A stretch of DNA of 64,000 nt from Stieleria magnilauensis. Lineage in GTDB: Bacteria > Planctomycetota > Planctomycetia > Pirellulales > Pirellulaceae. Location of the stretch: positions 5,802,394-5,866,393 of the forward strand of contig CP036432.1 in assembly GCA_007753675.1 (NCBI GenBank), read 5' to 3'. The position numbers were made by a program, and so were the translations under genes. Positions 1,968 to 57,220 of this stretch are shown one piece after another (position 1 is the stretch's first letter; every line of letters starts with the position of its first letter). The notes beneath the pieces are model-generated. The model made no database searches, was not told where the DNA came from, and saw only the letters and a program-made list of their open reading frames with translations.

Positions 1968-2186
1968 CTAACGCGGTTTCGATGACACTGGATGTGGTTG
2001 AAAAGCGTCCAGGTGTATTGGCGAGCTTGGTTCAATCGGCATCAGCTCGCCGCGCACGATGGCGACCTCGCGTGGTGCGTCGATTGCCAATGACACTCGA
2101 CCGCCAGATGTCCGGTGTATCGTGATCGTTGTGTTCGTTCCGGGCAAGCAAATCGACTCGCCCATTTTGCGTGACAGAATTAGCAT
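1968..2186 (-). CDS. csrA: CsrA-type RNA-binding translational regulator
   Basis: A 72-residue protein starting MLILSRKMGESICL, matching the CsrA N-terminus. The second conserved block IDAPREVAIVRGEL matches the canonical APKEVAVHREE region, with the RNA-contacting Arg retained. CsrA dimers bind GGA motifs in mRNA leaders and control translation and stability. About 15 residues of Pro/Ser-rich tail extend beyond the usual core. The gene lies 53 bases downstream of a zinc-ribbon/pseudo-receiver gene in the same direction, so the two may be cotranscribed. A second CsrA domain, fused to a receiver, is found at 46784-47395. Confidence 0.9.
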   Translation of the reverse strand: MLILSRKMGESICLPGTNTTITIHRTSGGRVSLAIDAPREVAIVRGELMPIEPSSPIHLDAFQPHPVSSKPR

Positions 2187-40908: not shown

Positions 40909-41997
40909 TCATCCGCCGTCAGGATTGGCGAACTTAAGCCACTCGTGTTCGCGCAGAGTCTTACGAGACTTATCATTGAGTCGGACTGCAGTCGTACCCC
41001 CGTCGCCGGCGACCAATTCCAGAGCGTCGATCTCTCCGAGAGCATTCACTTTTTCGCGGACGATTGGAACGGCTATTCTGCAGCCGTTGAACGCATCTTC
41101 GGCCAAGCTGCTTACGTCGACGTAGTCGTATTCACCTTGTTGCAAAGAATTGACTCGGCGCAGCAGCAAAATGTGCCAAAGCTCATCGGCGGCTTCGTAT
41201 CCACTCCGAGTCAAACGGAACACCTCTCGTTTGTACCCGAGATCCTCGGCGAAACCGCATTGCTCAAGTTGCTCCAAGCCACCCTCCCACTTGGCCTCGG
41301 AACGTTCGTCACCAGTATTCGTGAGGCAGATGCCACCCACAGATAACTCGTGGCCAGCTCGCATTCGGGACAGGAGGATTCGACTGCTGTCAGCCACGGA
41401 TGCAACGGCAAGAATGGAACATGCTTCTGGTAAAAGCGTTACGTCGCGGCGGTCTGACTCAGCGGTTATCACCGCAAATTCGTTGCTGTCGAGAATCGCA
41501 TTCATTGTCAGATCGAGTTGCTGTCGGAACAGACGAGCGAATTCCTCTGCTTCCGTGTACTGAAGATACAATCCGTCGGTTTTTACGCTGTCCTTGAACG
41601 AGCGGACTGCTTGGACTTGCTCCAAATCAGCCGCATTGGGAATGGGGCGGTCGCAGAAGAAAAGCAAGACTTTGTCATCGCCTTTTGTCTCGGAGAACTC
41701 ATGGATTTCTTGAACCGTGCCAGACAGGGCTTTCGCGGTTGGCGTTCCGAGACGCGACCATAGGATTGCAACGAGCAGGTCGCAACGCTCCAGCAATTGA
41801 GCGTTAATCAAGTCTTGCGGATGCCCACCCTGCACAGCACGCGAGTGGGTCTCAACCCGAATCGGCTCGACGATTACGGATCGCGGCAGAGAATGGGCGG
41901 CATTCCATTCCTGAATGACTCGGCAAGCCTCTTCCCGTTCAAGATGGACATCGCCGGGGCTGGCTATAAATACACGGACGATGATTCCGTTTTGCAT
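40909..41997 (-). CDS. DUF4062-domain protein with winged-helix-like C-terminus
   Basis: A 362-residue protein from ATG 41997. The N-terminus is a DUF4062 domain: VRVFIASPGDVHLEREEACR, then GHPQDLINAQLLERCDLLVAILWSRLG, a fold related to nucleotide-binding and TIR-like modules. The middle and C-terminus look like an alpha/beta region followed by a helical, winged-helix-like part (EQCGFAEDLGYKREVFRLT). DUF4062 is common at the N-terminus of STAND NTPases and other defence proteins, but no NTPase follows here. Its role is unknown; a defence or signalling effector is an inference. Confidence 0.72.
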   Translation of the reverse strand: MQNGIIVRVFIASPGDVHLEREEACRVIQEWNAAHSLPRSVIVEPIRVETHSRAVQGGHPQDLINAQLLERCDLLVAILWSRLGTPTAKALSGTVQEIHEFSETKGDDKVLLFFCDRPIPNAADLEQVQAVRSFKDSVKTDGLYLQYTEAEEFARLFRQQLDLTMNAILDSNEFAVITAESDRRDVTLLPEACSILAVASVADSSRILLSRMRAGHELSVGGICLTNTGDERSEAKWEGGLEQLEQCGFAEDLGYKREVFRLTRSGYEAADELWHILLLRRVNSLQQGEYDYVDVSSLAEDAFNGCRIAVPIVREKVNALGEIDALELVAGDGGTTAVRLNDKSRKTLREHEWLKFANPDGG

Positions 41998-42340
41998 ATT
42001 CTCGATACTCGCCTTTGAAGAGAGGAAGTTTTTGCATCGTGCAGGAAACTTTGCAGGAATCAAACAAAACGATGATTGTATTGGAGCATTCCGGAAATGG
42101 CAGCCATAGCAAGCAAGAAAACTCGGTTCCGGAAGGTCAGTTTCCAGCATGCCATCGTGCTAAAGTCCCAGCAATCGCAAGTTGGTAACGCTGGCAGCAT
42201 ACGCCACTCAACGCCCTGTCATTGCAGGTTCGCTATGGAGTTCATGTACGATAAATCCGACGGACCGATGACACGCCGCAACTGAGCTTCGAGCGACGGC
42301 GTCAAACAAATCAATGACGAGGTGAGCAGTTATTGCTCGA
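41998..42340. other. Gap without a convincing gene
   Basis: About 340 bases between two minus-strand genes. It includes the presumed promoter of the DUF4062 gene and the end region of the ATPase gene. Short frames are present but none is supported. Confidence 0.3.
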
Positions 42341-44848
42341 TCATTCATAGTTCGTTGAGATCGATCGGTAAGCGAGCAGTCGCAGCGCGTTAAAGACGAC
42401 GACGAGGGTACTTCCTTCGTGGAGGGCGACGGCGGGGCCGATGTTGAGACCTAGGATTGTTGCCGGTACGAGAAAGGCGACCATGCCGAGGCTCATCCAT
42501 AGGTTCTGGCGGATGATGCGGCGGGTGGCTCGGCTGAGTCCAATAGCGAGTGGGAGATGGTCGAGGTTGTCGGCCATCAGTGCAACGTCGGCTGTTTCGA
42601 GCGCAACGTCGCTGCCGGCGGCTCCCATGGCGATGCCGACCGAAGCGGATGCCATCGCAGGGGCGTCGTTGACGCCGTCGCCTACCATCGCCACGCCGCC
42701 TTCACTTTGCAGCTTCTTGATCTCCGTGACTTTGTCGTCGGGCATCAGGTCGCCGCGTGCTTCGTCAAGACCAACTTCATTGGCGACCGCGTCGGCGACT
42801 TGCTGATTATCTCCGGAGATCATGATCATCCGCTGAATGCCGAGTTGACGCAGTTGTGCAATTGTTCGTTTCGATGCTTCACGCGGTGTGTCCATCAGTC
42901 CGATGACGCCGAGATAACGGTCGCCGCGACGAACAATCATGGTGGTTCGTCCGTGTTTTTCAAGTGACTCGACGATGGTTCGAACGCTATCGGGAAGCGG
43001 TGGACCATCGACCTCTGCGAATAAGTCGTCCTTGCCAATGTGAACCAATTCGCCTTCGACGGTCGCTTGAATCCCACGTCCAGTAATGCTCTTCAAATCG
43101 GTCGCTTCAGGGATGAAACCCGCGGCTAGCGCCGTCGGCTCACCAGACTCCCCTCCTTCCAGCTTCTTTCTCCCGTCTCGGACGACGGCTTTGGCGAGCG
43201 GGTGCTTACTGAGGTCTTCGACGGCGATCGCAAACCGCAAGAGTTCCGATTCGTCGACACCTTCGGTGGTGCGAACGTCAGTCACTTTGGGTTCGCCTTC
43301 GGTCAGTGTTCCGGTTTTATCGAACGCGATCGCATCGAGACTGCCGAGGCTTTCCAGTGGCCCGCCGCCTTTGACAAGGATTCCTCCGCGAGCTGCTCGG
43401 GCGACTCCGCTCAGAACTGCACTGGGTGTTGCGATCGCCAGGGCACAGGGGCTTGCTGCGACCAAAACAGCCATCGCTCGATAAAATGAATCGCTGAAAC
43501 TTTCGTCGATGACCAACGGTGCAAACATCAGTAACACAACGCCAGTGATGACGGATGGGACAAAGTAACGCTCAAACTTCTTCGTAAACTTCTGAGTCGG
43601 TGAAACTCGCGTTTCCGCTTCGCTGACCATCGTAACAACGCGGGCGAGTGTGTTCTCGGACGCCGTCTTGGTGACTTGGATTTCGATGGAACCGGACTGA
43701 TTGATCGTCCCAGCGAACGCACGATATTCGGCGGAAAGCGATTCGGGATCAGCTGCTGCGGCGTCAACGTCATCGACGGGGCGTTTGTCTACGGGAACAC
43801 TCTCGCCGGTAATCGGTGCTTGGTTGATGCTCGATTCACCAGCGATCACGAAGCCATCGGCGGGGACGCGTTCATCGGGTTTGATCACGACGACGTCGCC
43901 AACGACCAATTCTTCGACGGGAACCTCAGTTTCCGTGCTGTCGCGGCGCACACGCGCGGTTCGAGGCGCGAGTTCCGACAGCGCTTCGATGGCACGCTTG
44001 GCCTTTCCCATCGCGTAGCCTTCCAAGGCGTGGCCAATGCTGAACAGAAACAGCAACAACGCTCCTTCGGCCCAGGCACCAAGCGACGCGGCACCTGCGG
44101 CGGCGACGATCATCAAGAAGTCAATTTCAAATTTACCAGCTCGAATTTTTTCAATTGCTTCGGTGACCGTGTAGTAGCCGCCGAAGAGATAGGCCGCGAT
44201 GTAACAGCCCAAAGAAATCCATTCGTTGAGATGCGCAAAAGATTCGATCAACCATCCGACTAGCAACAACACGCCACAGAGGACTGCGAAGATCAATTCC
44301 GACCTGGGACCAAAAATACCGCCGTGAGCGTGGTCGTGTCCCGAGTGATCGTGTTCCGCCTCGTGACCTTCATCATCATGCTTGTGGCCGGCGTGATCGC
44401 CGACAACGTCCGCTGCTTCGCCGGTCCATTCGTTCAGAGCCTTTGCGATCGCGGATTCGCTGGTGGTCCGTTTGTCGTACTCGACGCGAACAGCGCCATC
44501 GGGTGACACGACCGCTTCAAGGACGCCGTCTACCCGTCCTAATCGCGACTCGATCGCGGAGGCTCGGCGGGCGTGTGTTGATCGCAACTTACTGAGCCAA
44601 TGCCCATAACGCTGATCCAATTGCGCACCGGCACGCTTTGCGAGATCTCGCACTTCGCCAGTCGAAACCACACTCGGATCGTAGTGAATACAAATTCGAT
44701 CGGGCGTCTCGGTACCCCTCTTAATCGCGTGAACCGAATCAATGCCAGCCTTCGCTTGCAGCAAGTCCGCCAGTCTGTCGACGCAGGCATCATCCGCCGA
44801 ATCGACGGTCGGCAGCAAAAGGCCCAGTTGCATTTTTTCTTTATTCAT
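42341..44848 (-). CDS. P1B-4-type heavy-metal-transporting ATPase (SPC motif)
   Basis: An 835-residue P-type ATPase. The start at 44848 is preferred because it overlaps the stop of the preceding small gene; 44863 is also open. The N-terminus has two weak HMA-like regions and a His-rich stretch (HAGHKHDDEGHEAEHDHSGH). Catalytic features: SPC in AASPCALAIATP (about residue 460), phosphorylation motif DKTGTLT (about 510) and GDGVNDAPAMA (about 720). The late helix motif LHEGSTLVVVFNALRLL is the signature of the P1B-4 group, which exports cobalt, zinc or related ions, rather than CPC-type copper pumps. Metal specificity is inferred. Confidence 0.9.
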   Translation of the reverse strand: MNKEKMQLGLLLPTVDSADDACVDRLADLLQAKAGIDSVHAIKRGTETPDRICIHYDPSVVSTGEVRDLAKRAGAQLDQRYGHWLSKLRSTHARRASAIESRLGRVDGVLEAVVSPDGAVRVEYDKRTTSESAIAKALNEWTGEAADVVGDHAGHKHDDEGHEAEHDHSGHDHAHGGIFGPRSELIFAVLCGVLLLVGWLIESFAHLNEWISLGCYIAAYLFGGYYTVTEAIEKIRAGKFEIDFLMIVAAAGAASLGAWAEGALLLFLFSIGHALEGYAMGKAKRAIEALSELAPRTARVRRDSTETEVPVEELVVGDVVVIKPDERVPADGFVIAGESSINQAPITGESVPVDKRPVDDVDAAAADPESLSAEYRAFAGTINQSGSIEIQVTKTASENTLARVVTMVSEAETRVSPTQKFTKKFERYFVPSVITGVVLLMFAPLVIDESFSDSFYRAMAVLVAASPCALAIATPSAVLSGVARAARGGILVKGGGPLESLGSLDAIAFDKTGTLTEGEPKVTDVRTTEGVDESELLRFAIAVEDLSKHPLAKAVVRDGRKKLEGGESGEPTALAAGFIPEATDLKSITGRGIQATVEGELVHIGKDDLFAEVDGPPLPDSVRTIVESLEKHGRTTMIVRRGDRYLGVIGLMDTPREASKRTIAQLRQLGIQRMIMISGDNQQVADAVANEVGLDEARGDLMPDDKVTEIKKLQSEGGVAMVGDGVNDAPAMASASVGIAMGAAGSDVALETADVALMADNLDHLPLAIGLSRATRRIIRQNLWMSLGMVAFLVPATILGLNIGPAVALHEGSTLVVVFNALRLLAYRSISTNYE

Positions 44849-45059
44849 CTTTTTCTTTCTCATTGTTTCCGATCATGACTAAATGCTTGCGTTTATTCGA
44901 GTGCATCAGCATTAACACCGGTTGCTCCGCGTCGGATCGTTCGCGAATTCGTTCGTAATGGTCAAGGATGCAAATGGCGTGCCCATTGGTACAGACTACT
45001 GCCATTGCGACGGCTAAGCCTTCGGTGTAGGAAATACTCCCCTTGGTTACGTGTGGCAT
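44841..45059 (-). CDS. Small protein overlapping the P-type ATPase start
   Basis: A 72-residue protein whose last codons (EKEKDE) overlap the first codons of the ATPase, so translation is probably coupled. It begins MPHVTKGSISYTEGLAVAMAVVCTN and contains Cys and His (CTNGHAICILDHYERI). No family is recognised. A metal-binding or regulatory accessory of the pump is plausible. Confidence 0.5.
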   Translation of the reverse strand: MPHVTKGSISYTEGLAVAMAVVCTNGHAICILDHYERIRERSDAEQPVLMLMHSNKRKHLVMIGNNEKEKDE

Positions 45060-45114
45060 CAGCGGACTCTGAGTTCATTCGGGAAGGTTTAATTCGCAAG
45101 GAATAGTCGTGCAC

Positions 45115-45303
45115 CTAGCCGTGCGAAACACGATCTGCCGTGTTGCGAATTTCTTGCGACAGGCTACTGGCGTGAGGAGCGTTAGTAGGAAGCGAAGCAA
45201 CACGTGTTGGCTCGGCGGCACACAAAAGCGATATCGCGGCAAGTTGAATTGCAGCGGCGGCTCCACGCGACAGCGACGCAAAACGTAACGCAGAGCGACT
45301 CAT
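45115..45303 (-). CDS. Small exported protein, coupled to the phosphatase gene
   Basis: A 62-residue protein from ATG 45303, overlapping the phosphatase stop (ATGA). It has a hydrophobic stretch (AAAAIQLAAISLLCA) consistent with a signal peptide, then a short polar tail (SLSQEIRNTADRVSHG). No domain. Coupling to the signalling operon suggests a related role. Confidence 0.45.
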   Translation of the reverse strand: MSRSALRFASLSRGAAAAIQLAAISLLCAAEPTRVASLPTNAPHASSLSQEIRNTADRVSHG

Positions 45304-46784
45304 TGAATTCTCCGTCCTTGTCCGTCGAGTCGAAGTTGATTGGTTTGTGATTGCTGGTCGTGCTCCAGGCACTGGGCCACCAGCAGCGTAATATCGTCTT
45401 GAGAAGGTTGACCGCCAATGTGCGCGTTGACCCGATCGGCAAACGTGCGAGCAAGTTCCGCGATACAAGCGTGGCCGTCGTCCACTGCGAGCTGCTGGAT
45501 TCGTGTGCGGCCAAACATTTCGCCTGATTCATTGGTCGCTTCACTGATCCCGTCGGTTAGCAGCATGAAGCGATCGCCGTGATGGAGCTGGATCGTTTCT
45601 GTTTTCCAATCCAACGTCTCGTCCACGCCAAGGGGTAAGCCGGTCGCTTCGATCGACTGCATTTCTCCTTCATGAATCAACAGCATGGGTTCGTGACCCG
45701 CGCTGGCAAACTTCAACTCTTTTGATTCCGCATTCCAACGCAACATGATTGCGGTTGCGAAGCCATCTTCGGCTAAGTAACGCGGCAGGGCTCGGTTGAC
45801 GCGTCCCATCAGTTCGCCGGGATCGGTACAGCCGACTGCAGCCGAGTCGATGACTAATTTCAGAATCGAGGCACTCATAGCGGCTGGGATGCCGTGGCCG
45901 ACAAGGTCAGCGACGTAGATCAACCACGACCCGTCGCGCAGCTTCATCACGTCGTAGATGTCACCGGCAACTTCTTCGGCGGGTTGGTAGTGCGTTGCGA
46001 TGCGAAGACCGGGAACGTCAATTCTGTTGGGGAGCAAGTTGCGTTGAATTTGTTCGGCTCGCTTCATCGCTGTCGCCCGATTCGCTTGAGCGGCATTCAA
46101 TGAATCTGCCATCGCGGAAATTGATTCACTCAAATCATTCAATTCCAAACTGAGGAATGAAGTCGGTTCGACCTCAAATTGTTGCGAACCGAGTCGTATC
46201 ACTGATGCGGCAAGCTGCATCGTTGGTCTAGCGATCAGCCGCACGAGCACCACATCGACAATTACCGCCGCCAACGCCGCGATGCCCAACAACCAACTGA
46301 CGTGCATCAGGATTTCACCTCGAACACTTCGTCGAATGTCTGCGGCCAACTCCGAAACTTCGACCGTTAGCAATCCTGACGAGAATCGTCCCGCGATCAC
46401 CTCGAGGCTAAAGTTTGGCGCGTCGACCGAAACGGTTGAATCGATCGGGCCGGTGTGGGTGTGCAGCTTGCATCCATTCCAGCGGACGTCGATCCAATGC
46501 CCCGGCGAGTCCGGACCAGCGGTTTCGGCGCAACTGCTTTCCAGGAAAGCCGTGATTGCCGCAGTATCATCGGGATCACTCAAACGCAACAACGCACTTC
46601 CGATCACACCCGCTTCGTCGCTGAGTGTGATTCGTCGTTCATCAGTGGCACGCCGCATCTCTCGTCGGTAATCCGTCACCAGTAAGAGGCCAACGAGAAG
46701 GGCGAGTGGGATATTGACTGCCACCAGCAACAGCGACACCGTCGGGTAGGCCCGACGGTGATTCTTGGTCACGCGGTCGCCCAT
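45300..46784 (-). CDS. SpoIIE/RsbU-type PP2C phosphatase with HAMP-like region
   Basis: A 494-residue protein starting at ATG 46784, which overlaps the stop of the CsrA-receiver gene by one base. Two membrane helices bracket a periplasmic sensor domain of about 120 residues. After the second helix comes a HAMP-like part (LVRLIARPTMQLAASV), a short coiled coil, then the PP2C domain (YQPAEEVAGDIYDVMKL, YVADLVGHGIPAAMSAS, GHEPMLLI, LLTDGISEATNESGEMFG, DDITLLV) with its metal-binding Asp residues. It probably dephosphorylates an anti-sigma-factor antagonist in response to an outside signal. No such antagonist gene lies beside it. Confidence 0.88.
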   Translation of the reverse strand: MGDRVTKNHRRAYPTVSLLLVAVNIPLALLVGLLLVTDYRREMRRATDERRITLSDEAGVIGSALLRLSDPDDTAAITAFLESSCAETAGPDSPGHWIDVRWNGCKLHTHTGPIDSTVSVDAPNFSLEVIAGRFSSGLLTVEVSELAADIRRSVRGEILMHVSWLLGIAALAAVIVDVVLVRLIARPTMQLAASVIRLGSQQFEVEPTSFLSLELNDLSESISAMADSLNAAQANRATAMKRAEQIQRNLLPNRIDVPGLRIATHYQPAEEVAGDIYDVMKLRDGSWLIYVADLVGHGIPAAMSASILKLVIDSAAVGCTDPGELMGRVNRALPRYLAEDGFATAIMLRWNAESKELKFASAGHEPMLLIHEGEMQSIEATGLPLGVDETLDWKTETIQLHHGDRFMLLTDGISEATNESGEMFGRTRIQQLAVDDGHACIAELARTFADRVNAHIGGQPSQDDITLLVAQCLEHDQQSQTNQLRLDGQGRRIQ

Positions 46785-47395
46785 CAATCGTGTCCAGCAA
46801 GGCGTTGTTGCACGATGTGAACAATCTCGGTGCAACCGAACGCGCGCAGGCGGCTCGCAGAACCTTCAGGGGATTCATCCGGTGAAGGAAAACTGAGCAG
46901 CGCTACAGGAATTTGGTCAATCGAAGGATCATGGTACATGACCTCGACAACACCGTCACCGCTACCCCATAGCAAGTGCTGGTCAATAACCAACATGTCG
47001 AACGCGCCGGAACGGAGCGCTGACAAGCAAGATATTCCATCGGTGACTTCACTCGCACCGAAACCGACGTAGCGAAAGGCATCGGCATAGCGACGACGTT
47101 CGTCGGCGTCAGTGATGGCCACCAAAACATTCGCTGGGTCCGACTGTTCGGAACGAGAGGGCAAAGTGCGCGTCTCACGAGACTTGGGTTCCAGTCGCCA
47201 ATGAGTGGCAATGCCTTCTTCGACGACCGTGTCTTCGTCATCGGGTGACACTTGTTCGCCGCGACAAATGGCGATTTCACGAGGAGCGTCGGTCGACAGT
47301 CTCGCTCGACTGCGACTTGCTTTCGCGATGGTGATCGTGGTTTCAGAACGGAGCAAACAAATCGATTGTCCAACCCTTCTTGATAGAACCAACAT
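46784..47395 (-). CDS. CsrA-receiver fusion protein
   Basis: A 203-residue protein with two parts. Residues 1-55 are a CsrA domain (MLVLSRRVGQSICLL, then STDAPREIAICRGEQ). After a short acidic linker, residues about 88-203 form a receiver-like domain (NVLVAITDADERRRYADAF, then LRSGAFDMLVIDQHLL) with Asp kept at the phosphorylation position. The domain pairing of an RNA-binding regulator and a phospho-receiver is not one I know as an established family. The sequence also resembles the stand-alone receiver at 50537 (ALRCRAFDILIVETELPLG). It is cotranscribed with the phosphatase gene (TGATG overlap), so phosphorylation-controlled RNA binding is a reasonable hypothesis. Confidence 0.88.
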   Translation of the reverse strand: MLVLSRRVGQSICLLRSETTITIAKASRSRARLSTDAPREIAICRGEQVSPDDEDTVVEEGIATHWRLEPKSRETRTLPSRSEQSDPANVLVAITDADERRRYADAFRYVGFGASEVTDGISCLSALRSGAFDMLVIDQHLLWGSGDGVVEVMYHDPSIDQIPVALLSFPSPDESPEGSASRLRAFGCTEIVHIVQQRLAGHD

Positions 47396-47497
47396 GGTTT
47401 GAAATTCCTTGAGGCGTAGACGGGATCATTCCGCCGTGAGTGTTGTGATGCCGGAATCATTTCCGGGCGACGCTGTGCTTTGGATCGAGCAAGTGGC

Positions 47498-47992
47498 TCA
47501 AATCAAAAAACGACAAAGCCGCGCACAAAGCTTCGGAGGCGTTTCAAACCAGACAGCGATCCGCCCGTCTTGGTGTCGTGATGCAACCAGCACTGCGTGA
47601 TCCACTCGCGCGAGAAAGAAGTACTGGGCGTATACCTTGGCCCGCCGCGGTGACGGAGCTGACTCCGCATAGGCCAACGGGCTGGCCTCGCAGCATGAAC
47701 ACGGGAGGCCTGACGTCGACATCTCGGAATTGGTCGTGGTTGCCGCAGCAGTATGGCAGCCGCACATCGTCGCCGGCGAAGCGGTTGCGCAGCAGCGTGT
47801 TGCCGCGTCGTTTGAATGACCACATTGGCAGTGACGCGTCTGGCCGACCAGCGCCGTGATCAGGACAAGAACCGCCGCGAGGTGCACCGCAACTTGGTGG
47901 CGAACACATTTGCGCCGTGAGTGATGGAAGCAGCAATTCCCGCTCACCCGACTGACCTCCTCAGGCACCTTACGATGCCAAGGTGACACCAC
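47498..47992 (-). CDS. Cys-rich membrane/secreted protein (LC-x-x-LC tail family)
   Basis: A 164-residue protein. A hydrophobic segment (VAVHLAAVLVLITALVGQ) near residue 35 serves as signal or anchor, although the true start may be an internal GTG. Cys/His clusters follow (HCQCGHSND, CGCHTAA, LPCSCCEASPL). The end KLCARLCRFLI is the same ending as in the proteins at 3035 and 62945. The family has no described function; metal binding is likely. Confidence 0.6.
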   Translation of the reverse strand: MVSPWHRKVPEEVSRVSGNCCFHHSRRKCVRHQVAVHLAAVLVLITALVGQTRHCQCGHSNDAATRCCATASPATMCGCHTAAATTTNSEMSTSGLPCSCCEASPLAYAESAPSPRRAKVYAQYFFLARVDHAVLVASRHQDGRIAVWFETPPKLCARLCRFLI

Positions 47993-48150
47993 AACGACGG
48001 CACTGGCGAATCGTATTGACTACGCCATCGATTCTTCGCCGGAGTCGAAAACGCAAAAAACGTACGTTTTACGGGGGTTTTACGATTTGGTACGCGACCT
48101 GCATTACCGATCCCATGTTCCCCCGCTTCTCCTCCCAACGGATCTGAAAA

Positions 48151-48516
48151 ATGAAACGCTTTTTGATGATTGCCTTCGCTGGTGCTGCCCTGACCTTTCT
48201 CATTCCGTCGGCTGACGTTACGGCTGCTGACTTCCATCATGGCGGTGGCCATGGCTACAGCGGCAGCCACGGGTATATTGGTCATGGTGGCGGTCACGTT
48301 AACTACGGGCACCGATACACCGGTGGCCACAGGTACTATGGCGGACACGGAGTCGTTACTCCCTACTATGGTTCGGGGTACGGCCGGTCCTCGTTCGGCT
48401 ATGGTGGTGGCCACTACGCACCGAACTACCGCGCGTACCAACCGGCTCATCGCGGCCACGGTGGTGTGCATCTCGACGTAGGACGTTTGCATCTCGGAAT
48501 CGGCGGTCATCACTGA
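48151..48516 (+). CDS. Secreted Gly/His/Tyr-rich protein, second copy
   Basis: A 121-residue protein. A good signal peptide (MKRFLMIAFAGAALTFLIPSADVTAADF) is followed by low-complexity Gly, His and Tyr repeats (GGHVNYGHRYTGGHRYYGGHG) and a short amphipathic end (GGVHLDVGRLHLGIGGHH). It resembles the 1384 protein in layout but not in detail. A strong hairpin follows at 48580-48603. His-rich repeats suggest metal binding; the function is unknown. Confidence 0.68.
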   Translation: MKRFLMIAFAGAALTFLIPSADVTAADFHHGGGHGYSGSHGYIGHGGGHVNYGHRYTGGHRYYGGHGVVTPYYGSGYGRSSFGYGGGHYAPNYRAYQPAHRGHGGVHLDVGRLHLGIGGHH

Positions 48517-48579
48517 TCGAAGCCAGCCATCTGCGCAATTAATTACGACCGCGCGGATAACGACGAATAGACCGCGACG

Positions 48580-48603
48580 GCATCGCAGGACAGCCTGCGA
48601 TGC
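48580..48603 (+). terminator. Hairpin, probable transcription terminator
   Basis: A perfect 10-bp stem (GCATCGCAGG / CCTGCGATGC) with a 4-base loop, followed by GGTTGTCGTT, about 65 bases after the Gly/His-rich gene and 45 bases from the opposite antiporter stop. It may serve both convergent genes. Confidence 0.6.
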
Positions 48604-48648
48604 GGTTGTCGTTCTCCAAAGCCTTCGTGTATCAATTGCTGGTTTCAT

Positions 48649-50244
48649 TTACGCCCCTCTTCCGAGTTCGGGCAAATCGGGCATCGTGTCATCGCCGATT
48701 CGGGCAAGCGATTTCTTGAGTAGGACCGGAGTCATCAGCGTGGTGACGATAACCATGGCAACGACGGCGGAAAACAGCGAGCCAGAAAGAACGCCAAATC
48801 CCCTGCCTATACTTGCGAAAATGAGTCCGACCTCTCCTCGCGGAATCATCCCCAACCCAATCGTCCAACGATCCGCCCCACGTCCAGATACAATACCACA
48901 GGCCAATTTCCCGACGATCGCAACGACACTCAGGCCCAACGCAAGCCACAGAGTGTTGATATCGGTGAACGATCGGAGATCGACTTGCATCCCCATCAGT
49001 ACAAAGAAGATGGGAGCAAATATCTTTTCCAGTGGCGCGATTAAGCCTTCCATGGAGTGTTGTGAATCAAACTTGAAATGGTCCTCTCGCAAAATCAAAC
49101 CTGCCGCAAATGCTCCTACAATCGGGGCCAGTCCGATGATCCCCGCGACCCAAGCCAGAAGGAATGCCAACGCGAGCGGAAACAATAGCTTGAGATGACG
49201 CCCCCCAAAAGTCGTGAACACGGGAATCATCCATCCAACGAACTTTCCGCCACACAGAATTATTGCGACGAGGAAAAGCGTCGACAGCAAACCAATCTTG
49301 CTTATCTTAAGCACATCAACTTCCCCAGTGGATGCCACTCCGACAACAACCGTCATCAAGATGAGGCCGAGAATGTCATCTATGACCGCCGCGCCGAGAA
49401 TAATCTTCGCTTCTCGAGTCTGTGTTTTCTTAAAATCTTGCAGGACGCGAGCGGTGATTCCAACGCTGGTCGCACAAAGCGTTGCTGCCAAGAAAAGATG
49501 GGCTACAACCGGGGACTCGGGCAGCAACCACCGGCTCGCAAAGTAACCTAGCACAAATGGGATAGTGACTCCGACGACGGCAACCAGCAATGCTCTCCAA
49601 CCGACCGCGAGCATGTCATCGACCTGGGACTCCAATCCCACCATGAACAAGAGCAGAATGACACCTAGCTCCGAAAACAGCCAAATCGCAAAACCCATTG
49701 CGATGTAGCGTGGTCCTTCTTCCCCGGTCACAATCGTAATCAACCGGGCGGTTCTTCCGTGCTGGTTGACGGCATCGGCACCGAAAATCTGTTCGGCCGC
49801 CAGAGGCACGGACTCGCCGGAAAGCCAGACTTCGCTGAACAACGGGATTATATCGCCCAGATTCATCACCAGCGTAAAGAACGGAATTCCTAACCAAACG
49901 CCGATGTTCCCCAATAGCGTTCCGATCAACAGTTCCCCCAACACGGACGACTGTCCGACTCGTTCGGCGACCCATCGGCCTGAGGCGGCAAGCACAATAA
50001 TGATCCCAAGCTCGAGCAGGATGGGTGAAAATGATAGTTGATGGTCTTCCGGGCTGTGAGCGTCAATGCTGTCTTTTGCGTCTACGTTCCTGTTTGAATT
50101 CTGCTCCGCTGGCGGGAATTCGGTTGCTTTGACCGAACGCATCGGGGCGGCATCACAGACGAGGTCACTCATCATCCCAGCCAGCATAAGGCTGAGAATC
50201 ATGAAGACCATCGGCAGAGGGTTTCGATAAGCTGCACCAATCAT
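48649..50244 (-). CDS. Kef/CPA2-type cation:proton antiporter
   Basis: A 531-residue protein with a polar N-terminal extension (about residues 20-75) and then about 12 helices. CPA2 hallmarks are present: GELLIGTLLGNIGVWL, ATLCATSVGITARVLQDF, GAAVIDDILGLILM (the two Asp of the ion-binding site) and a late GMIPRGEVGLIFASIG. It exchanges monovalent cations for protons, and Kef relatives export potassium. No TrkA-N domain follows. It is the last gene of the minus-strand efflux array. Confidence 0.88.
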   Translation of the reverse strand: MIGAAYRNPLPMVFMILSLMLAGMMSDLVCDAAPMRSVKATEFPPAEQNSNRNVDAKDSIDAHSPEDHQLSFSPILLELGIIIVLAASGRWVAERVGQSSVLGELLIGTLLGNIGVWLGIPFFTLVMNLGDIIPLFSEVWLSGESVPLAAEQIFGADAVNQHGRTARLITIVTGEEGPRYIAMGFAIWLFSELGVILLLFMVGLESQVDDMLAVGWRALLVAVVGVTIPFVLGYFASRWLLPESPVVAHLFLAATLCATSVGITARVLQDFKKTQTREAKIILGAAVIDDILGLILMTVVVGVASTGEVDVLKISKIGLLSTLFLVAIILCGGKFVGWMIPVFTTFGGRHLKLLFPLALAFLLAWVAGIIGLAPIVGAFAAGLILREDHFKFDSQHSMEGLIAPLEKIFAPIFFVLMGMQVDLRSFTDINTLWLALGLSVVAIVGKLACGIVSGRGADRWTIGLGMIPRGEVGLIFASIGRGFGVLSGSLFSAVVAMVIVTTLMTPVLLKKSLARIGDDTMPDLPELGRGA

Positions 50245-50293
50245 GGATGCGTCGATCCGTGAAGCTTGCCATCGTTTGCTGCAGCTTGATTCG

Positions 50294-50500
50294 TCATTGC
50301 AAAACCTTGATTTGATTTCTGACGCCGGTGACTCCCGGCGTCGTGCTAACGATTGCCATGGCGAGAGCGCGATCGTCCAAATCCAAAACTGATGCTGTCA
50401 GTTCGGCGATCCCATGCGAATCCACCGTGACAGTCGAGTTTGGGAATCCCGACCTCGTTAGAGACTTGCTGATTCGCGTTTCGATGTAGTTTTTTATCAC
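50294..50500 (-). CDS. Small BON-domain protein
   Basis: A 68-residue protein that is just one BON module (TVDSHGIAELTASVLDLDDRALAM, then TTPGVTGVRNQIKVL). Such stand-alone modules can bind membranes or phospholipids. It lies between the antiporter and the receiver-like gene. Start ATG 50500. Confidence 0.75.
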   Translation of the reverse strand: MIKNYIETRISKSLTRSGFPNSTVTVDSHGIAELTASVLDLDDRALAMAIVSTTPGVTGVRNQIKVLQ

Positions 50501-50536
50501 TTCGATTCCTGAATCTTGGGTAACGACTCAACGAGC

Positions 50537-50920
50537 TTATTGGCGTAGGCGACTCTCGACAACCTGAACAAGTTCTTCGATTGCAAGCGGGGAGCCGTTG
50601 CTGCGTCTGTGGCCCTTTCTTGAATCCACAGGGATTTCAATGATGACTGCCGGGACCGCTTGAATTTGCGGGTCATTCCTCAACACCTCGATGATGCCTT
50701 CGCCTTGCCCCAACGGAAGTTCCGTTTCCACTATCAAAATGTCGAACGCTCGGCAGCGTAAAGCATCCAGACACTCATTCGCGTCAGAAACGTTGGCTAC
50801 GTTGAATCCCTCACTGGAGAGACGCGATGAATATTGGTATTGAAGCGTCGAATCAGAAATGGCCATGAGTACGGTTCTTCTTGCCTCTAACATCGTCGCT
50901 TGCATATCCTCTCTTCTCAT
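50537..50920 (-). CDS. Stand-alone receiver-like protein with Glu at the phospho-acceptor position
   Basis: A 127-residue receiver-like protein (start 50920 or 50905). The acidic-pocket region (VLMAISDSTLQYQYSS) and the phosphorylation segment FDILIVETELPLGQGEGI follow the usual order, but the phospho-acceptor Asp is Glu (IVETELP). In other response regulators Asp-to-Glu changes can mimic the phosphorylated state. The sequence around it is strikingly close to the receiver of the CsrA fusion (FDMLVIDQHLLWGSGDGV). Confidence 0.75.
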   Translation of the reverse strand: MRREDMQATMLEARRTVLMAISDSTLQYQYSSRLSSEGFNVANVSDANECLDALRCRAFDILIVETELPLGQGEGIIEVLRNDPQIQAVPAVIIEIPVDSRKGHRRSNGSPLAIEELVQVVESRLRQ

Positions 50921-50949
50921 TGTCTTGTCAACACAAACGTTTCGTTTTG

Positions 50950-51711
50950 CTATTCGCCCACCCTAGCCATGATTTCTTCGAACTTCGCCCAACGACGAAA
51001 CTGACGTTTCATAATGCGGGCAATGCCATAGAGCACTAGCCCACCACCGAAGACGAGATACCACGAGGTTTCTACGGCGACTTTTCCTTGCTGCATCCTG
51101 TGCATCACGATTTCCAATCCAGGGAACGCCAATGCGATCACAGCAACTGCCGCTGATTCGGCGCGAATCACCTTGGGCCAATTCATTGGCAGTTCCGCGC
51201 TCCGCCACCGTATGATTCGAGGCACAAAAGCGGGGGTGCGATTTGCCCACCGGATGAACACTCGCCCGAACTTCTGCCGCAAGAATGCTTCCTCGGTAAA
51301 CATGATTCGTTCGTAGTACAGCGCAAAAGACATCACATAAATCGCAATCAGCCATGGCGAAAGGGAATGCATCACAATCCCAAGCGCGATGAGGAAATTG
51401 CCGAGGTACAACGGATGCCGAAGGACTGAATAGAACCCAGACGTGTTCAGTGACTCGGCAATCTGTTCTTTCGTGTTGCGACCGGACGTTCCATCTGCCG
51501 CATGCCCTACCGTATGGCATCGTATGAAAAGACCAAGCAACGAAACGCAGAGACTGACGATGCCCCAAGCGAAATGCAAACTCGGATTCGTTTCGATCGT
51601 CGGGTATCGCGTCGCGGCGACGAAGATCAGCGGTAGGAAAGCGAATGGAAGATAGCTGCGCCAACGGAACAGCCAAACACCAGATCGTTCAAATTCTTCA
51701 ATGAGGGGCAT
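50950..51711 (-). CDS. Isoprenylcysteine/phospholipid methyltransferase-like membrane protein (ICMT/PEMT)
   Basis: A 253-residue membrane protein from ATG 51711. It has about five helices and the ICMT/PEMT signature RHPLYLGNFLIALGI followed by EEAFLRQKFGRVFI. The family methylates isoprenylcysteine or membrane lipids using SAM. It is transcribed after the CzcA-like pump, with which it shares a 13-base spacer carrying a purine-rich repeat arm (GGAGTTGGGAG). The link to metal efflux is unexplained. Confidence 0.8.
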   Translation of the reverse strand: MPLIEEFERSGVWLFRWRSYLPFAFLPLIFVAATRYPTIETNPSLHFAWGIVSLCVSLLGLFIRCHTVGHAADGTSGRNTKEQIAESLNTSGFYSVLRHPLYLGNFLIALGIVMHSLSPWLIAIYVMSFALYYERIMFTEEAFLRQKFGRVFIRWANRTPAFVPRIIRWRSAELPMNWPKVIRAESAAVAVIALAFPGLEIVMHRMQQGKVAVETSWYLVFGGGLVLYGIARIMKRQFRRWAKFEEIMARVGE

Positions 51712-51724
51712 AGGAGTTGGGAGT

Positions 51725-54700
51725 TTAGAGGTCGGTTGGCTTGGGATCGTCCGGTTCCGCGGCGTCTTCGGTGGGCTCAAACCAGTGGTAAATTGACGGC
51801 AGCACAATTAGCGTTAGCAGACTGGATGTAATCACTCCACCGATGACGACGGTGGCCAGTGGGCGCTGGACCTCTGCACCGCTGCTGTTGGAAAATGCCA
51901 TCGGCAAAAAACCGAGTGCGTCGGTGGTCGCTGTCATCAACACGGGACGCAGGCGGTCGACTGCGCCGGTGAAGACTGCGCTGCCGACTTCGCTGCCGGA
52001 TTCACGTAGGGCACGGATGTGTTCAATCAACACCACACCGTTCATGACCGCGATGCCGAACAGGGCGATAAATCCCACCCCGGCGGAAATCGAAAACGGC
52101 ATGTCACGAATCCATAACGCCAAAATCCCGCCAACGGTCGCGATCGGCACATTCAAGAAGATCAGCAGCGCGAGTTTGACCGAATGAAATGTCAGATACA
52201 GCAACGATCCAATCAGAAACAGCGCGAGCGGAACTGCGACGGACAAACGCCCGACGGCGTCTTGAAGGTTCTTGAATTGACCTCCCCACGTCACGCGATA
52301 ACCGGGCGGCAGGTCCACCTGGGATTCAACGGCCGCTTGAGCTTCGCCCACAAAACCGGCCAAGTCGCGACCACGAACATTGACTTGAACCAAAAAGCGA
52401 CGGCGAATTTCGTCCCGGCTGATTTGTGCGATGCCAGGACCAACGGTGATTTCAGCAAGTTGTTCGAGCGGTATCTGCCGACCACTCTTGTCCGCAATTC
52501 GCATCTTTTTGAGCGATTCCAGGTCTTTGCGGTACTTCGGTGCCAACCGGACCATCAACGGGAAACGCTTTTGGCCTTCAAAGACTTCGCCAGCGTCTTT
52601 GCCCCCAATCGTCGCGACCGCATCGAGCACGTCTCCGGCATTGATTCCGTAGCGCGCGATCTGATCTCGCAAAATCTTCACTTGGATGTAAGGCAGGCCG
52701 CCCGTTTGCTCGGGCTGGACGTCCGCCGCACCGGGTACTTGAGAGACAACGCCCGCGATTTCGTTTCCGATCTTTTGCAACGTTTCAAGATCGTCACCGT
52801 AGAGACTGATTCCGATATCGCTGCGAACACCGGAAAGCAATTCTTGAACACGCAATTCAATCGGCTGAGTGAAGCTGAAGTTATTTCCAGGAATTCGTTT
52901 GTACAGTGCTTCGCTCATCGCGGTGATCAGTTCTTGTTTGTCATCGAACCGCCACTCATCACGAGGCTTCATGATGACAAAAATGTCACTCGCCTCGACG
53001 CCCATCGGGTCGGTGGCGATTTCAGGGCGTCCGGTTTTTGACACGACCGATTCGACTTCGTCGCCGAATTCATCCAGCAACGTTTGTTCGATGTCGGTTG
53101 TCATCTCAATCGAACGTTCCAGTGAAACGCTGGGCAATCGCACGGCCTGAATTGCCATGTCACCTTCGTCAAGTTTCGGCACGAATTCCGCACCGAACCG
53201 ACTGGCGATGAAGATGCCGACGGCCAGCGAGACGGTTGCGAAACAGACGATCGCCACCGGGTGCTTCATGCTGCGTCGCAACAACGGCTCGTACCCGCGC
53301 TTGGCCAGGCGAATCAAAAACGGGTCGTTTTGTGTAAACTTACGAGCCAAGAATAGCGATGCGAGAACCGGCATCACGGTCAATGAAAGGATCAATGCGC
53401 CCACGAGTGCCGACATGAAGCTGAACGCCATCGGGCCGAACATCTTTCCTTCGATGCCCTGCAACGACAGGATCGGAATGAAGACGATGATCACGATCGC
53501 ACCAGCAAACAGAATCGGTCGTGCAACTTCGTGACCCGCTTCCCGAAAGACTTTCAGTGGCGCCTTTTGCAAATCAGGATTGCGTTGTTTCGCCAACCCT
53601 ACTTGCCGAATCACGTTTTCGACCATCACCACGGCACCGTCAACGATAATCCCAAAGTCGAGCGCCCCCAGGCTCAACAGGTTGGCCGAGACGCCGAAGT
53701 ATTTCATCGACATGAAAGTGAACAAGGCGGACAATGGAATTGCCGAGGCCACAATCAAACCGGCTCGCCAATCGCCAACTAGCAAGAACAACATGATGAT
53801 GACCAGGATGGCACCCCCGCTGACGTTCTCGATAACGGTATCAACGGCCCGTTGGACCAGCTCGGTGCGGTCATAAAACGCTTCGATGTAGACCCCTTCG
53901 GGCAGCGACTTTTGAATTTCCGCCACTTCCGCTTTGACGTCTTGCACGACGACGCGAGAGTTCTCGCCGATCAACATCATCACGATTCCAACGACCGCTT
54001 CGCCTCGACCGTCGCGGGTGACGTAGCCCTGACGCAGCAGCGGCGCAAATCGAACATCGCCGATGTCGCGAACCAAGATCGGTGTTCCGTCTTCGCGGCT
54101 GTCCAACACGATGCTGCCGATATCGTCGAGCGACTCAACCAGCCCTTCGGCGCGGATCAGTCGTTGTTCTTCGTAGTGCTGGATGTATCCACCACCGGCG
54201 TTGGCGTTGTTGCGATCCAGGGCATCAAAGACTTGTTGAAGCGTGATGCCATAATTCAGCATCGCAGTAGGATCGACCTGGACTTCGTAGGTTTTCAGCT
54301 CACCACCAAACGTGTTGACTTCGATCACGCCGGGGACACCGCGGAGTTGAAAGGCCACGTTCCAGTCGAGAATGGTCCGAAGTTCTTGCAGGCTGTAGTC
54401 GTAGCCCTCTTTCGCTTGAACCTCAAACTGATAGATCTCGCCCATTCCTGTTGCGATCGGTCCCATTGTGGGTACACCGATGTCCGACGGAATGTCCGCG
54501 CGGGCTTCGGTCAATCGCTCGCCAACCAGTTGTCTGGCCCAGTAAATGTCAGTGCCTTCCTCGAACACAACGGTCACGTTGGAAAGGCCGAATCGAGTGA
54601 CGCTGCGGATTTCGGTGACTTTCGGAATACCGCTCATCGCGGTCTCGACCGGAAACGTGACGAATTGCTCCATTTCGACCGGGCCGAGCGCCGGTGACGT

Positions 54701-54853
54701 GGTTAGAACCTGAACCTGAACATTGGTCAGGTCGGGCACTGCGTCGACGGGAAGCCGTAACATCGAATAGATGCCAGCGACCACCAACAGCACGACGCCC
54801 AAGAGGACGACGATGCGATTGTTCAGCGAGATGTCAATAATGCGATTTATCAT
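51725..54853 (-). CDS. Heavy-metal RND efflux pump, CzcA-like (divalent class)
   Basis: A 1042-residue RND transporter. The N-terminus (ISLNNRIVVLLGVVLLVVAGI) is the first of 12 membrane helices. The helix-4 proton-relay motif is GALDFGIIVDGAVVMVEN, the DFG-x3-DG type of the HME subfamilies that export Co, Zn, Cd or Ni. Periplasmic porter loops follow both helix blocks. The gene follows its HlyD-type adaptor (54860) by 6 bases, and an outer-membrane partner is presumably the TolC gene at the window end. Specificity is inferred from the motif. Confidence 0.93.
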   Translation of the reverse strand: MINRIIDISLNNRIVVLLGVVLLVVAGIYSMLRLPVDAVPDLTNVQVQVLTTSPALGPVEMEQFVTFPVETAMSGIPKVTEIRSVTRFGLSNVTVVFEEGTDIYWARQLVGERLTEARADIPSDIGVPTMGPIATGMGEIYQFEVQAKEGYDYSLQELRTILDWNVAFQLRGVPGVIEVNTFGGELKTYEVQVDPTAMLNYGITLQQVFDALDRNNANAGGGYIQHYEEQRLIRAEGLVESLDDIGSIVLDSREDGTPILVRDIGDVRFAPLLRQGYVTRDGRGEAVVGIVMMLIGENSRVVVQDVKAEVAEIQKSLPEGVYIEAFYDRTELVQRAVDTVIENVSGGAILVIIMLFLLVGDWRAGLIVASAIPLSALFTFMSMKYFGVSANLLSLGALDFGIIVDGAVVMVENVIRQVGLAKQRNPDLQKAPLKVFREAGHEVARPILFAGAIVIIVFIPILSLQGIEGKMFGPMAFSFMSALVGALILSLTVMPVLASLFLARKFTQNDPFLIRLAKRGYEPLLRRSMKHPVAIVCFATVSLAVGIFIASRFGAEFVPKLDEGDMAIQAVRLPSVSLERSIEMTTDIEQTLLDEFGDEVESVVSKTGRPEIATDPMGVEASDIFVIMKPRDEWRFDDKQELITAMSEALYKRIPGNNFSFTQPIELRVQELLSGVRSDIGISLYGDDLETLQKIGNEIAGVVSQVPGAADVQPEQTGGLPYIQVKILRDQIARYGINAGDVLDAVATIGGKDAGEVFEGQKRFPLMVRLAPKYRKDLESLKKMRIADKSGRQIPLEQLAEITVGPGIAQISRDEIRRRFLVQVNVRGRDLAGFVGEAQAAVESQVDLPPGYRVTWGGQFKNLQDAVGRLSVAVPLALFLIGSLLYLTFHSVKLALLIFLNVPIATVGGILALWIRDMPFSISAGVGFIALFGIAVMNGVVLIEHIRALRESGSEVGSAVFTGAVDRLRPVLMTATTDALGFLPMAFSNSSGAEVQRPLATVVIGGVITSSLLTLIVLPSIYHWFEPTEDAAEPDDPKPTDL

Positions 54854-54859
54854 GATGAA

Positions 54860-56383
54860 TTAGTGACCGTGGCCGATCTCTCCTTTCATCAGTTCTGACT
54901 TCAGAGCGAATCCACCGGACGTCACCACTTTGTCGCCGACCTTCAAACCTTCGCGAATTTCGACAACGCCGTCAGATTTCGTCCCTGTGACGATGGGAAC
55001 CATGAGAAATTCGGTTTCGCCTTGCTGAACGAAGACGACGGTTTTGTCCTCCACTTCCTGAATGGCCGATTCGGGCACCGCCAAAATGTTTTGAGAGTCT
55101 TCCGAGGGTATTTCAATTTCCACGAACATTCCCGGCTTCAAATGCCGATCCTCGTTTTCGGCAATCGCCTGTAGGCGGAGCGTACGGGTGTCCGGATCGA
55201 GAACGTCGCCGCGATAAAAGATTTTGGCAGTATGCGTATGCAATGAACCGTCGCTGGCCGTCGGAGCACGAAAGGTCAGCGTGTCGCCGAGCCCGGCGAT
55301 CGCGGGTAGGTCCTTTTGATAGATGTCGGCTTGAACCCAAACGGTGGATAGGTCAGCGAGACGAAACATCTCGGTGTCGGTGCCAACTCGCTCGGCCAGA
55401 ACCACATTCTTGGCAATGATGGTTCCCGCAAAGGGAGCGACGACTTCGTAGTGAGATAGGTGCCCGCTCTTCTCGTCAGGCTGAATGTTTTCAAGATCGT
55501 CATCGTCATAACCGAGGATGTTCAGCTTTGCCTTTGCGACTTCAACGGCCTGTGCCGCTTGTTGCACGGCCTGCTCGGCTTCCAGGGCATCCTGCGGGAC
55601 GCCAAATCGCAACTGTTCCAGAACCGCGTTGAAACTCGCTTTGGCGGTATTGAGGTTGGCTCTTGCTTCGATCAACTGCTTTCCGGCGATCGCGCCAGTG
55701 TTGGCGATCGGTTCGATGCGATCGAAATCCGTTTGGGCTTGCACCAAGGTCGTGTAGGCACCGAGCAACTGTTCGCGATACTTTCCGATCGGCTTATCAC
55801 CAAGCGTCTTTTCAATTTCCTCCGCCGAAGCGTTCCGATCGAGCGCGTCGATCAACTGCAAAGCATTCGTCTTCACCTGTTGAGCGAAGTCATTCGCCTG
55901 CTTGGCAAACTTTTCCTGCAACCTTGCTTGGTACAATTCCAGCTTGGCTGTACCCACCTCACGGCTGTCGATGATCGCGAGCGTCTGGCCCTCGTCGACG
56001 CGGTCGCCCAAATTCACGGGGACTTCATGCGCCCGCCCTTCGGTAATGGAATAGATGTTAGCGCTGCGGTCCTCGTTCAGTGTGAGCTTTCCCGTGGCCC
56101 AGGTTTGCATCGTCACTGTCTGACGGTTGACCGGCTGCACCTTCAGCTTGGAAGCTTCCCACATTTCTTTTGGCAATTGGACGACCGCTTCTTCCGCGCC
56201 ACCCTCATCGTGGTCCCCTCCCTCATCATGACCGTGCCCGTCTTCGCCCTCGGCAGCCTCCGTGTCAGCGAGCGGTCCACCGGACCAATAAGGAACGCTA
56301 AAATAGACCGCTCCGCCGGCAAGCACCGCTGATGCGAGGCAGGCTCCAATGAGGGTTTTGTTGAACGTTGTTTTCTGCGGCAT
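54860..56383 (-). CDS. HlyD-type periplasmic adaptor with His-rich N-terminus
   Basis: A 507-residue membrane-fusion protein from ATG 56383 (an upstream ATG at 56404 adds seven residues). Signal anchor (LIGACLASAVLAGGAVYFS), then a His/Asp/Glu-rich segment (GEDGHGHDEGGDHDEGGAEE), the barrel-sandwich lipoyl halves (EGRAHEVPVNLGDRVDEGQTLAI and YEVVAPFAGTIIAKNVVL) around a long helical hairpin, and a C-terminal beta domain ending EIGHGH. It connects the inner-membrane RND pump to the outer-membrane channel. The His-rich segment probably captures the metal. Confidence 0.92.
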   Translation of the reverse strand: MPQKTTFNKTLIGACLASAVLAGGAVYFSVPYWSGGPLADTEAAEGEDGHGHDEGGDHDEGGAEEAVVQLPKEMWEASKLKVQPVNRQTVTMQTWATGKLTLNEDRSANIYSITEGRAHEVPVNLGDRVDEGQTLAIIDSREVGTAKLELYQARLQEKFAKQANDFAQQVKTNALQLIDALDRNASAEEIEKTLGDKPIGKYREQLLGAYTTLVQAQTDFDRIEPIANTGAIAGKQLIEARANLNTAKASFNAVLEQLRFGVPQDALEAEQAVQQAAQAVEVAKAKLNILGYDDDDLENIQPDEKSGHLSHYEVVAPFAGTIIAKNVVLAERVGTDTEMFRLADLSTVWVQADIYQKDLPAIAGLGDTLTFRAPTASDGSLHTHTAKIFYRGDVLDPDTRTLRLQAIAENEDRHLKPGMFVEIEIPSEDSQNILAVPESAIQEVEDKTVVFVQQGETEFLMVPIVTGTKSDGVVEIREGLKVGDKVVTSGGFALKSELMKGEIGHGH

Positions 56384-56557
56384 GGTGGCGAACTCTTCCG
56401 GCAAATGTTGTTTTCTTGTCGATCGAAATCCTTTTCGTCGAAAATAACTTAGATGGCAGTGTAAAAACGGTTCCCGGCCTCACGAGGCTAGTCGTATCCG
56501 AGGCCGGGAACCTCGCCGATCGCGGTAACACACCGCGACCGACTTGGGTAATCGAAG

Positions 56558-56614
56558 ATTGATGATTGCCGATCGGAGATTGAAGAACGCAATCTGAAAT
56601 CTTCAATCATCAAT
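56558..56614 (-). repeat. Nested inverted repeat at an operon junction
   Basis: ATTGATGATTG (56558-56568) and CAATCATCAAT (56604-56614) form a perfect 11-bp stem; inside it GATTGAAGA and TCTTCAATC form a second stem. It overlaps the stop codon of the 56610 gene and lies before the adaptor gene, so it could control RNA stability or coupling. Confidence 0.65.
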
Positions 56615-57134
56615 GGCTATGTCCTTCGTGGTCATGATCGTGTGAAATCTTACCGGTATACGATTTGCCGTCGATTTGCAGGATCACGGCTCCTTCGGCC
56701 CCGGCTTCCATCCATTGGTCCATCTCGGCCTGGGTCGACGTGAATCGCGATGACTTTCCGGATTCATCGTCGGGCTGAGGGTCGGCGGGAAGTTCAAACG
56801 ATTTCACTTCGCCGTCATGCTTCAGGCTGACGGTTAGTTTTTCGGCTTCGATTGCGACCGGCTTCGTTGCCGATCCGTCGAGAACGTACATCGCTACCGC
56901 GCCGCTGCCGTGCATCATCTCGATGTGGAACGCCTCCTTACCGAGTTCGACGAGCTCCCCGCCATGTGGACCGTGTTCGGGGTGGCCTCCCATATCCATC
57001 ATCGGTGGCATCTCGTCCATGACGATGGGCTCTGGCGATTCGACCGGTGTGTCATCGATCTGCACGTCACTTTTAGAACAGCCCATCACTGCGACAATCG
57101 CCAGCAACAGGGTGAATAATTGCATTTTCATCAT
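56610..57134 (-). CDS. Metal-binding lipoprotein of the efflux array
   Basis: A 174-residue lipoprotein (lipobox VAVMGC). The start at 57134, with other Met at 57131 and 57125. Features: a Met/His-rich part (MPPMMDMGGHPEHGPHGGEL) that resembles metal-binding proteins of copper/nickel loci, then a beta-rich region, and a His-rich end (HDHDHEGHSH). It lies between the small secreted gene and the second adaptor. It probably binds the metal in the periplasm for efflux. Confidence 0.78.
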   Translation of the reverse strand: MMKMQLFTLLLAIVAVMGCSKSDVQIDDTPVESPEPIVMDEMPPMMDMGGHPEHGPHGGELVELGKEAFHIEMMHGSGAVAMYVLDGSATKPVAIEAEKLTVSLKHDGEVKSFELPADPQPDDESGKSSRFTSTQAEMDQWMEAGAEGAVILQIDGKSYTGKISHDHDHEGHSH

Positions 57135-57170
57135 GGCTCTTTCGGGTAAGGGGGGGGATCAAAAACGGAA

Positions 57171-57201
57171 TGGGGAATCGGACGAAGTTACCGATTCCCC
57201 A
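57171..57201 (-). repeat. Inverted repeat between two small genes of the efflux array
   Basis: TGGGGAATCGG (57171-57181) and CCGATTCCCCA (57191-57201) form a perfect 11-bp stem with a 9-base loop, in the 86-bp gap between the small secreted gene and the lipoprotein gene. It could be an attenuator or stability element. Confidence 0.65.
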
Positions 57202-57220
57202 CTCCTTCAAGACGCACGTT

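Follow-up and report, generated by a model that had tools for sequence, protein, structure and literature searches.

A CsrA domain joined to a degenerate receiver in Stieleria magnilauensis, and a more common canonical fusion family in its relatives

Analysis of a 64-kb stretch of DNA (the window), which is part of the complete 10.77-Mb chromosome of Stieleria magnilauensis, revealed a protein that we read, with a probability of roughly 55%, as a CsrA RNA-binding domain joined to a pseudo-receiver that no longer acts as an aspartate-phosphorylation switch, in a fusion separate from a canonical family of CsrA–receiver proteins. In its relatives, the fusion is commoner and more interesting than in the window itself, since it is found there with a helical hairpin between the domains, mostly complete receiver sites, and often a neighboring histidine-kinase gene. 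The following features of the window are referred to:

46784..47395, minus strand: CsrA–pseudo-receiver fusion gene (203 aa, ATG start, TGA stop)
47255..47395, minus strand: CsrA domain, aa 1–47 (Pfam PF02599, alignment with 1y00)
47147..47254, minus strand: short linker, about aa 48–83, lacking the helical hairpin of the canonical family (alignments)
46787..47146, minus strand: degenerate receiver domain, aa 84–203 (alignments, AlphaFold2 model)
46982..46984, minus strand: codon GAC of Asp138, the phospho-acceptor position (aligned with a nearly invariant Asp column)
45300..46784, minus strand: SpoIIE/PP2C-type phosphatase, 494 aa (Pfam SpoIIE, E 2.6e-46)
50537..50920, minus strand: stand-alone receiver-like paralogue, 127 aa (own genome's best match to the receiver of the fusion)
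1968..2186, minus strand: stand-alone csrA of the same subtype, 72 aa (own genome's best match to the CsrA domain of the fusion)

The first-pass annotation had described this gene as a CsrA domain joined to a receiver-like domain with a retained Asp and coupled by TGATG to a SpoIIE-type phosphatase, and this description was borne out. Residues 1–47 passed the curated cut-off of PF02599 (36.9 bits, cut-off 27, E 3.5e-9), which answered the question of a real CsrA fold in the N-terminal part, and were also matched to the CsrA structure 1y00 by plain phmmer (E 3.4e-4), while the stricter NCBIfam csrA equivalog cut-offs were failed (30.8 vs 70.1). Family alignment and 1y00 showed that R6, A37, P38, R45, and E47 are retained, with R45 aligned to R44 of E. 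coli CsrA; R6 and R44 of the E. coli protein, equivalent to R6 and R45 here, are RNA-contact residues. Changes at mostly family-conserved positions were detected as well, namely F14 and P15 to L, G28 to R, and G34 to S. Thus, the N-terminal 47 residues resemble E. coli CsrA, which is a stand-alone protein of 61 residues, whereas the window fusion has about 155 more, including the receiver-like domain. The CsrA domain would be expected to dimerise as CsrA does. A chance ORF was ruled out by the evidence for both domains, a ribosome site (Shine-Dalgarno-like AAGGA upstream of the ATG), and a second genome, in which the fusion occurs with one amino-acid change, so that a single-genome assembly accident does not account for it either; an assembly chimera was ruled out by the same fusion in G003, the genome of another Stieleria, and in locus L027.

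The receiver half is degenerate. Pfam Response_reg (PF00072) did not match the fusion at E values up to 1 (nor at 0.01), NCBIfam CheY reached E 0.0098 only, and our own receiver model was failed at E 1e-3 by the window fusion and by L030, a similar short CsrA–receiver fusion in another genus, both of which stand outside the 97 collected fusions described below. A weak plain phmmer match was obtained between residues 94–172 and the CheY structure 4hnq (E 0.0011), and residues 89–199 shared 34% identity (E 5.6e-16) with the receiver-like paralogue located about 3 kb away in the window. The paralogue itself matched Response_reg below the cut-off (E 4.5e-5, 24 bits, cut-off 30.2) and revealed Glu at the phospho-Asp position. 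A single-sequence AlphaFold2 model of the entire fusion was discarded (pLDDT 33). Modelled alone, the receiver half was predicted to adopt a receiver fold (pLDDT 88.1, pTM 0.81), though this model leans toward that fold because 13 of the 15 rows of the input alignment were receivers from viral contigs. The 50 PDB matches listed for it were receiver-domain entries with a query TM-score of 0.65–0.79, the best solved matches being PhoB and CheY structures. No helix or strand was called in residues 85–104 of the model and the mean pLDDT was 52 in residues 91–100, so that α4/β5 appear to be unformed. Overall, the C-terminal half carries a predicted CheY-like receiver fold, as the first-pass annotation had proposed.

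Alignment and codon both confirmed Asp138 as the retained Asp, while the phosphorylation site around it is incomplete. Where the wider family has the acidic pair, the window fusion has I-T, and Arg stands in place of the Lys, whereas Asp138 and the Ser are kept. Since the acidic pair and the Lys are lost, a classical phospho-switch is unlikely in the window copy, and its receiver is best read, from alignment and model, as a degenerate pseudo-receiver. Some atypical receivers function without a full phosphorylation site. Among the structural matches, we found the pseudo-receiver FrzS (2i6f); it resembles the window fusion in its receiver fold and incomplete phosphorylation site, but the window receiver differs in the α4/β5 region unformed in the model and in being fused to CsrA.

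A genuine switch, in which an orphan kinase, a kinase encoded far away, or a small phosphodonor phosphorylates Asp138 and thereby toggles RNA binding, would agree with the retained Asp138 and Ser (the latter at the Thr/Ser position), through which residual phosphorylation is possible, and with the canonical receivers and often adjacent kinases of the wider family. We nevertheless consider it improbable, as the acidic pair and the Lys are lost, α4/β5 are unformed in the model, and our own HK model detected no histidine kinase in the 64-kb window: none of the 52 kinases found among 686 ORFs from the window and 60 neighborhood loci is located there, with the limit that this model, derived from a single HisKA-type kinase, may overlook kinases of other types. 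Moreover, Glu stands at the Asp position in both the paralogue and L030, so that this type of receiver seems to drift at the phospho-site. The proposal of phosphorylation-controlled translation that accompanied the first description is thus poorly supported for the window fusion, while it fits the canonical family much better (see below). Instead, the pseudo-receiver may serve as a module for protein interaction or for shaping the dimer, setting where or when the CsrA part binds its putative mRNA targets.

The stop codon TGA of the fusion overlaps the ATG of the phosphatase gene as TGATG, as read from the junction, which agrees with the coupling claimed before. By reading, the N-terminal part of the phosphatase contains hydrophobic stretches, and its HAMP match is weak and below the cut-off. 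A Ser/Thr partner switch, in which the SpoIIE phosphatase dephosphorylates the fusion or a bound protein and so controls access to RNA, could be derived from this translational coupling, the intact SpoIIE domain, and the occurrence of the pair in both carrier genomes. The last point is uninformative, however, because the stretch is almost the same in both genomes; reading the starts of the window ORFs brought up no STAS or RsbW-like partner, and L030 lies near a sensor kinase (HK model) and an NtrC-like regulator (by reading) and not near SpoIIE. We therefore regard such a partner switch as unlikely as well.

In the vicinity of the fusion, Pfam identified a P-type ATPase with a weak heavy-metal domain, an Na/H exchanger, and a BON protein, while RND efflux genes and near-identical transposase-like ORFs were recognised by reading only. 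Based on these genes, we infer that the neighborhood is a metal-resistance island, and the fusion would probably act within a stress or metal-resistance island. The ORFs at 12840–14012, 14997–16160, and 22344–23507, near-identical and transposase-like by reading, suggest a mobile or rearranging island. Window positions 41399–60399 displayed 99.958% identity over 19,001 bases in G003, compared with 82–95% for pieces of two chromosomal loci elsewhere in the same two genomes (main pieces 91–95%). Among the 14 genomes of the genus searched, the entire 7.9-kb segment was present only in the own genome and G003, the best partial matches in the others covering the ATPase part at 72–78%. Given this high identity and patchy presence, the stretch was probably shared between the two genomes recently. 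A plasmid origin was rejected, as no plasmid record contains a single place that covers 80% of either query. A viral origin was rejected likewise, all 13 viral loci found matching the receiver half alone; 80 viral loci yielded 65 distinct CsrA ORFs, none of which matched our own receiver model at E 0.01, and no WG-type receivers were detected in a scan of viral contigs. Overall, 247 viral-contig stretches were found to encode CsrA relatives, of which 80 were kept, and six viral CsrA ORFs of 115–161 aa (L286, L298, L300, L301, L320, and L323) harbored uncharacterised C-terminal extensions.

That the window fusion was found, among the genomes searched, in the own genome and one other Stieleria only, that its receiver residues are eroded, and that family-conserved CsrA positions are changed would also suit a decaying gene, i.e., two genes fused recently and by accident on a mobile island, the receiver half being without a selected function. 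Against this stand the open frame, intact in both genomes, with its good ribosome site and translational coupling, the predicted receiver fold that is still compact, and the similar short fusion L030 in another genus, so that we give decay little credence; the single amino-acid difference between the copies is too few for measuring selection. A CsrA domain with a pseudo-receiver is the reading that we retain.

With regard to its origin, membership of the window fusion in the canonical family was rejected based on the missing hairpin, the degenerate receiver, and a different position in the tree. In a quick receiver tree, the 97 collected fusions grouped together (support 91), along with four rows mislabelled as HK that are fusion proteins from overlapping loci, while the window fusion and L030 grouped with stand-alone receivers, most of them with a WG motif (support 93). 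The branches are long, and according to a warning of the tree tool, such joins of the window fusion and its nearest receiver relatives may be false. Because of the long branches and the quick tree, a separate origin is likely rather than shown. The fusion appears to stem from a local csrA and a stand-alone receiver of the planctomycete type, which mostly carries a WG motif after the Asp. Elsewhere in the order, in another family, a stand-alone receiver gene with the WG motif is followed about 0.3 kb downstream on the same strand by csrA (L031, 1498–2521), a pair that is possibly an unfused forerunner of the window fusion.

Genes with a CsrA domain are numerous in these bacteria. The own genome harbors 12, and all 80 sampled genomes of the family revealed 3–14 CsrA matches. 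The top matches of the own genome to the CsrA domain of the window fusion are the stand-alone genes at 1968–2186 of the window and at 3.67 Mb. The csrA at 1968–2186 and L024 are near-identical copies in one genome with similar upstream sequence, so that csrA genes seem to be duplicated or mobile; the downstream frame differs in G003 (L086). Just upstream of this second csrA of the window, the ORF at 2240–2962 (minus strand) encodes a protein that weakly resembles a zinc ribbon at its N-terminus and weakly matches a receiver (E 0.011). Another gene of the own genome (L025, 201 aa) encodes a CsrA domain together with a helical stretch and ends in a truncated C-terminus.

The statement that CsrA is normally a stand-alone protein holds poorly in this family. 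After the first CsrA–receiver fusions in relatives had surfaced among long CsrA ORFs, a survey of Planctomycetota that combined both domains in one profile identified at least 120 places whose match starts at residue 1–2 and extends to residue 236 or beyond of 256; they are spread over at least 86 of the 241 Pirellulaceae genomes. Among the matches listed in 392 genomes of the phylum, full-length fusions occurred within the family, beyond it in G105 of the same order, and beyond the order in 10 more genomes of the class (families f21 and f22); none of the matches listed outside the class starts at the CsrA end. The own genome revealed no full-length member of the canonical family among the matches listed. 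For further analysis, 97 unique proteins with both CsrA and receiver were collected (75 clusters at 70% identity). Together with the window fusion, Pfam at E 0.01 assigned CsrA to 98/98, Response_reg to 94/98, and HisKA to 6/98 (best E 3.2e-4), and low-count families were also present, PDE8A_N (7) being the commonest after CsrA and Response_reg. R6 and R45 are present in all 97 collected fusions, and the full receiver site (acidic pair, Asp, Ser/Thr, and Lys) in 90, with 7 incomplete. Thus, the canonical proteins share with the window fusion the order of CsrA first and receiver last, but the latter lacks the hairpin, has incomplete canonical receiver residues, and falls into another group of the receiver tree.

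A helical hairpin lies between the domains of the canonical proteins. Linkers of 96 of the 97 fusions (after a length filter) displayed the common consensus RHxLRNRLN...GxxxxAxxxL and usually carried HxxRNxL, while the alignments revealed no such hairpin in the window fusion. Comparison of the linker profile via hhalign with a DHp profile from 24 histidine kinases of the same loci resulted in a probability of 95.5 (E 1.5e-8), while column-shuffled DHp profiles, which preserve composition, reached at most 4.0 in 100 trials, the reversed profile 1.5, and nine other kinase segments at most 0.9; selection of the DHp segments by their H-box pattern biases this comparison. At the profile level, the hairpin of the canonical family thus matches the DHp domains of histidine kinases and can be described as DHp-like. 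The hairpin His is present in 77/97 fusions and missing in 20/97.

Kinase genes were also encountered next to the fusions. A histidine-kinase gene was located within 2 kb of 26/37 fusions (40 loci picked manually in rank order, 37 with enough flank) compared with 1/19 stand-alone csrA genes (20 fetched, one too short), with a Fisher p of 2.2e-6 that is too small, as the genomes are related; 11/37 fusions had no kinase inside 2 kb. In the canonical family, a nearby histidine kinase would phosphorylate the receiver, perhaps via the hairpin His, and receiver phosphorylation would then alter how the CsrA dimer binds RNA. In three genomes of the family (L186, 2772–15083; L187, 2882–15003; L188, 3030–15799), two fusion genes flank two or three giant sensor-like proteins of 850–1340 aa, possibly as a conserved signalling cluster. 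According to Pfam, one of the giants of L187 carries CheB, CheR, PAS, HisKA, HATPase, and receiver domains, and a second one CheB, CheR, and PAS only.

In textbook Csr/Rsm systems, a two-component system acts on CsrA indirectly via titrating small RNAs. A receiver on CsrA's own chain would skip the small-RNA step and lead from a sensor kinase directly to translation or mRNA stability. A comparable combination of receiver and RNA-binding domain on one chain is found in the ANTAR response regulators AmiR and PdtaR. The proteins described here differ from these in having CsrA at the N-terminus and the receiver at the C-terminus, and additionally in the DHp-like hairpin of the canonical family and in the degenerate receiver of the window copy. 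The architecture as such is already catalogued: a 2007 paper citing Galperin 2006 (PMC2222644) lists CsrA beside ANTAR as an output domain of response regulators. In PMC12471899, E. coli CsrA is called an orphan response regulator, which is a misfit for a protein of 61 residues without a receiver. As a previous report of the fusion, the catalogue entry was found, while a literature search with little reach into subscription papers revealed no functional study of any CsrA–receiver protein. Novelty is thus limited; for the hairpin, the kinase linkage, and the degenerate copy, the literature searched held no description.

Taken together, Planctomycetia may possess a widespread class of two-component systems leading from kinase to mRNA directly, a reading to which we give somewhat less than even odds. 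The regulator would be a CsrA dimer on a DHp-like, usually His-bearing bundle with a canonical receiver, so that one chain could hold both a His-Asp relay and the translational output, and the class would have been re-invented in a degenerate and mobile form in the window, from csrA and a pseudo-receiver. As the window copy suggests, such a fusion can also form with a receiver that has degraded, and it can pass from one species to another. In the canonical family, the canonical receivers, the DHp-like middle domain, and the frequent neighboring kinase make direct control of CsrA by a kinase testable and, as far as these sequences indicate, suggest a direct route from an environmental signal to translation control.
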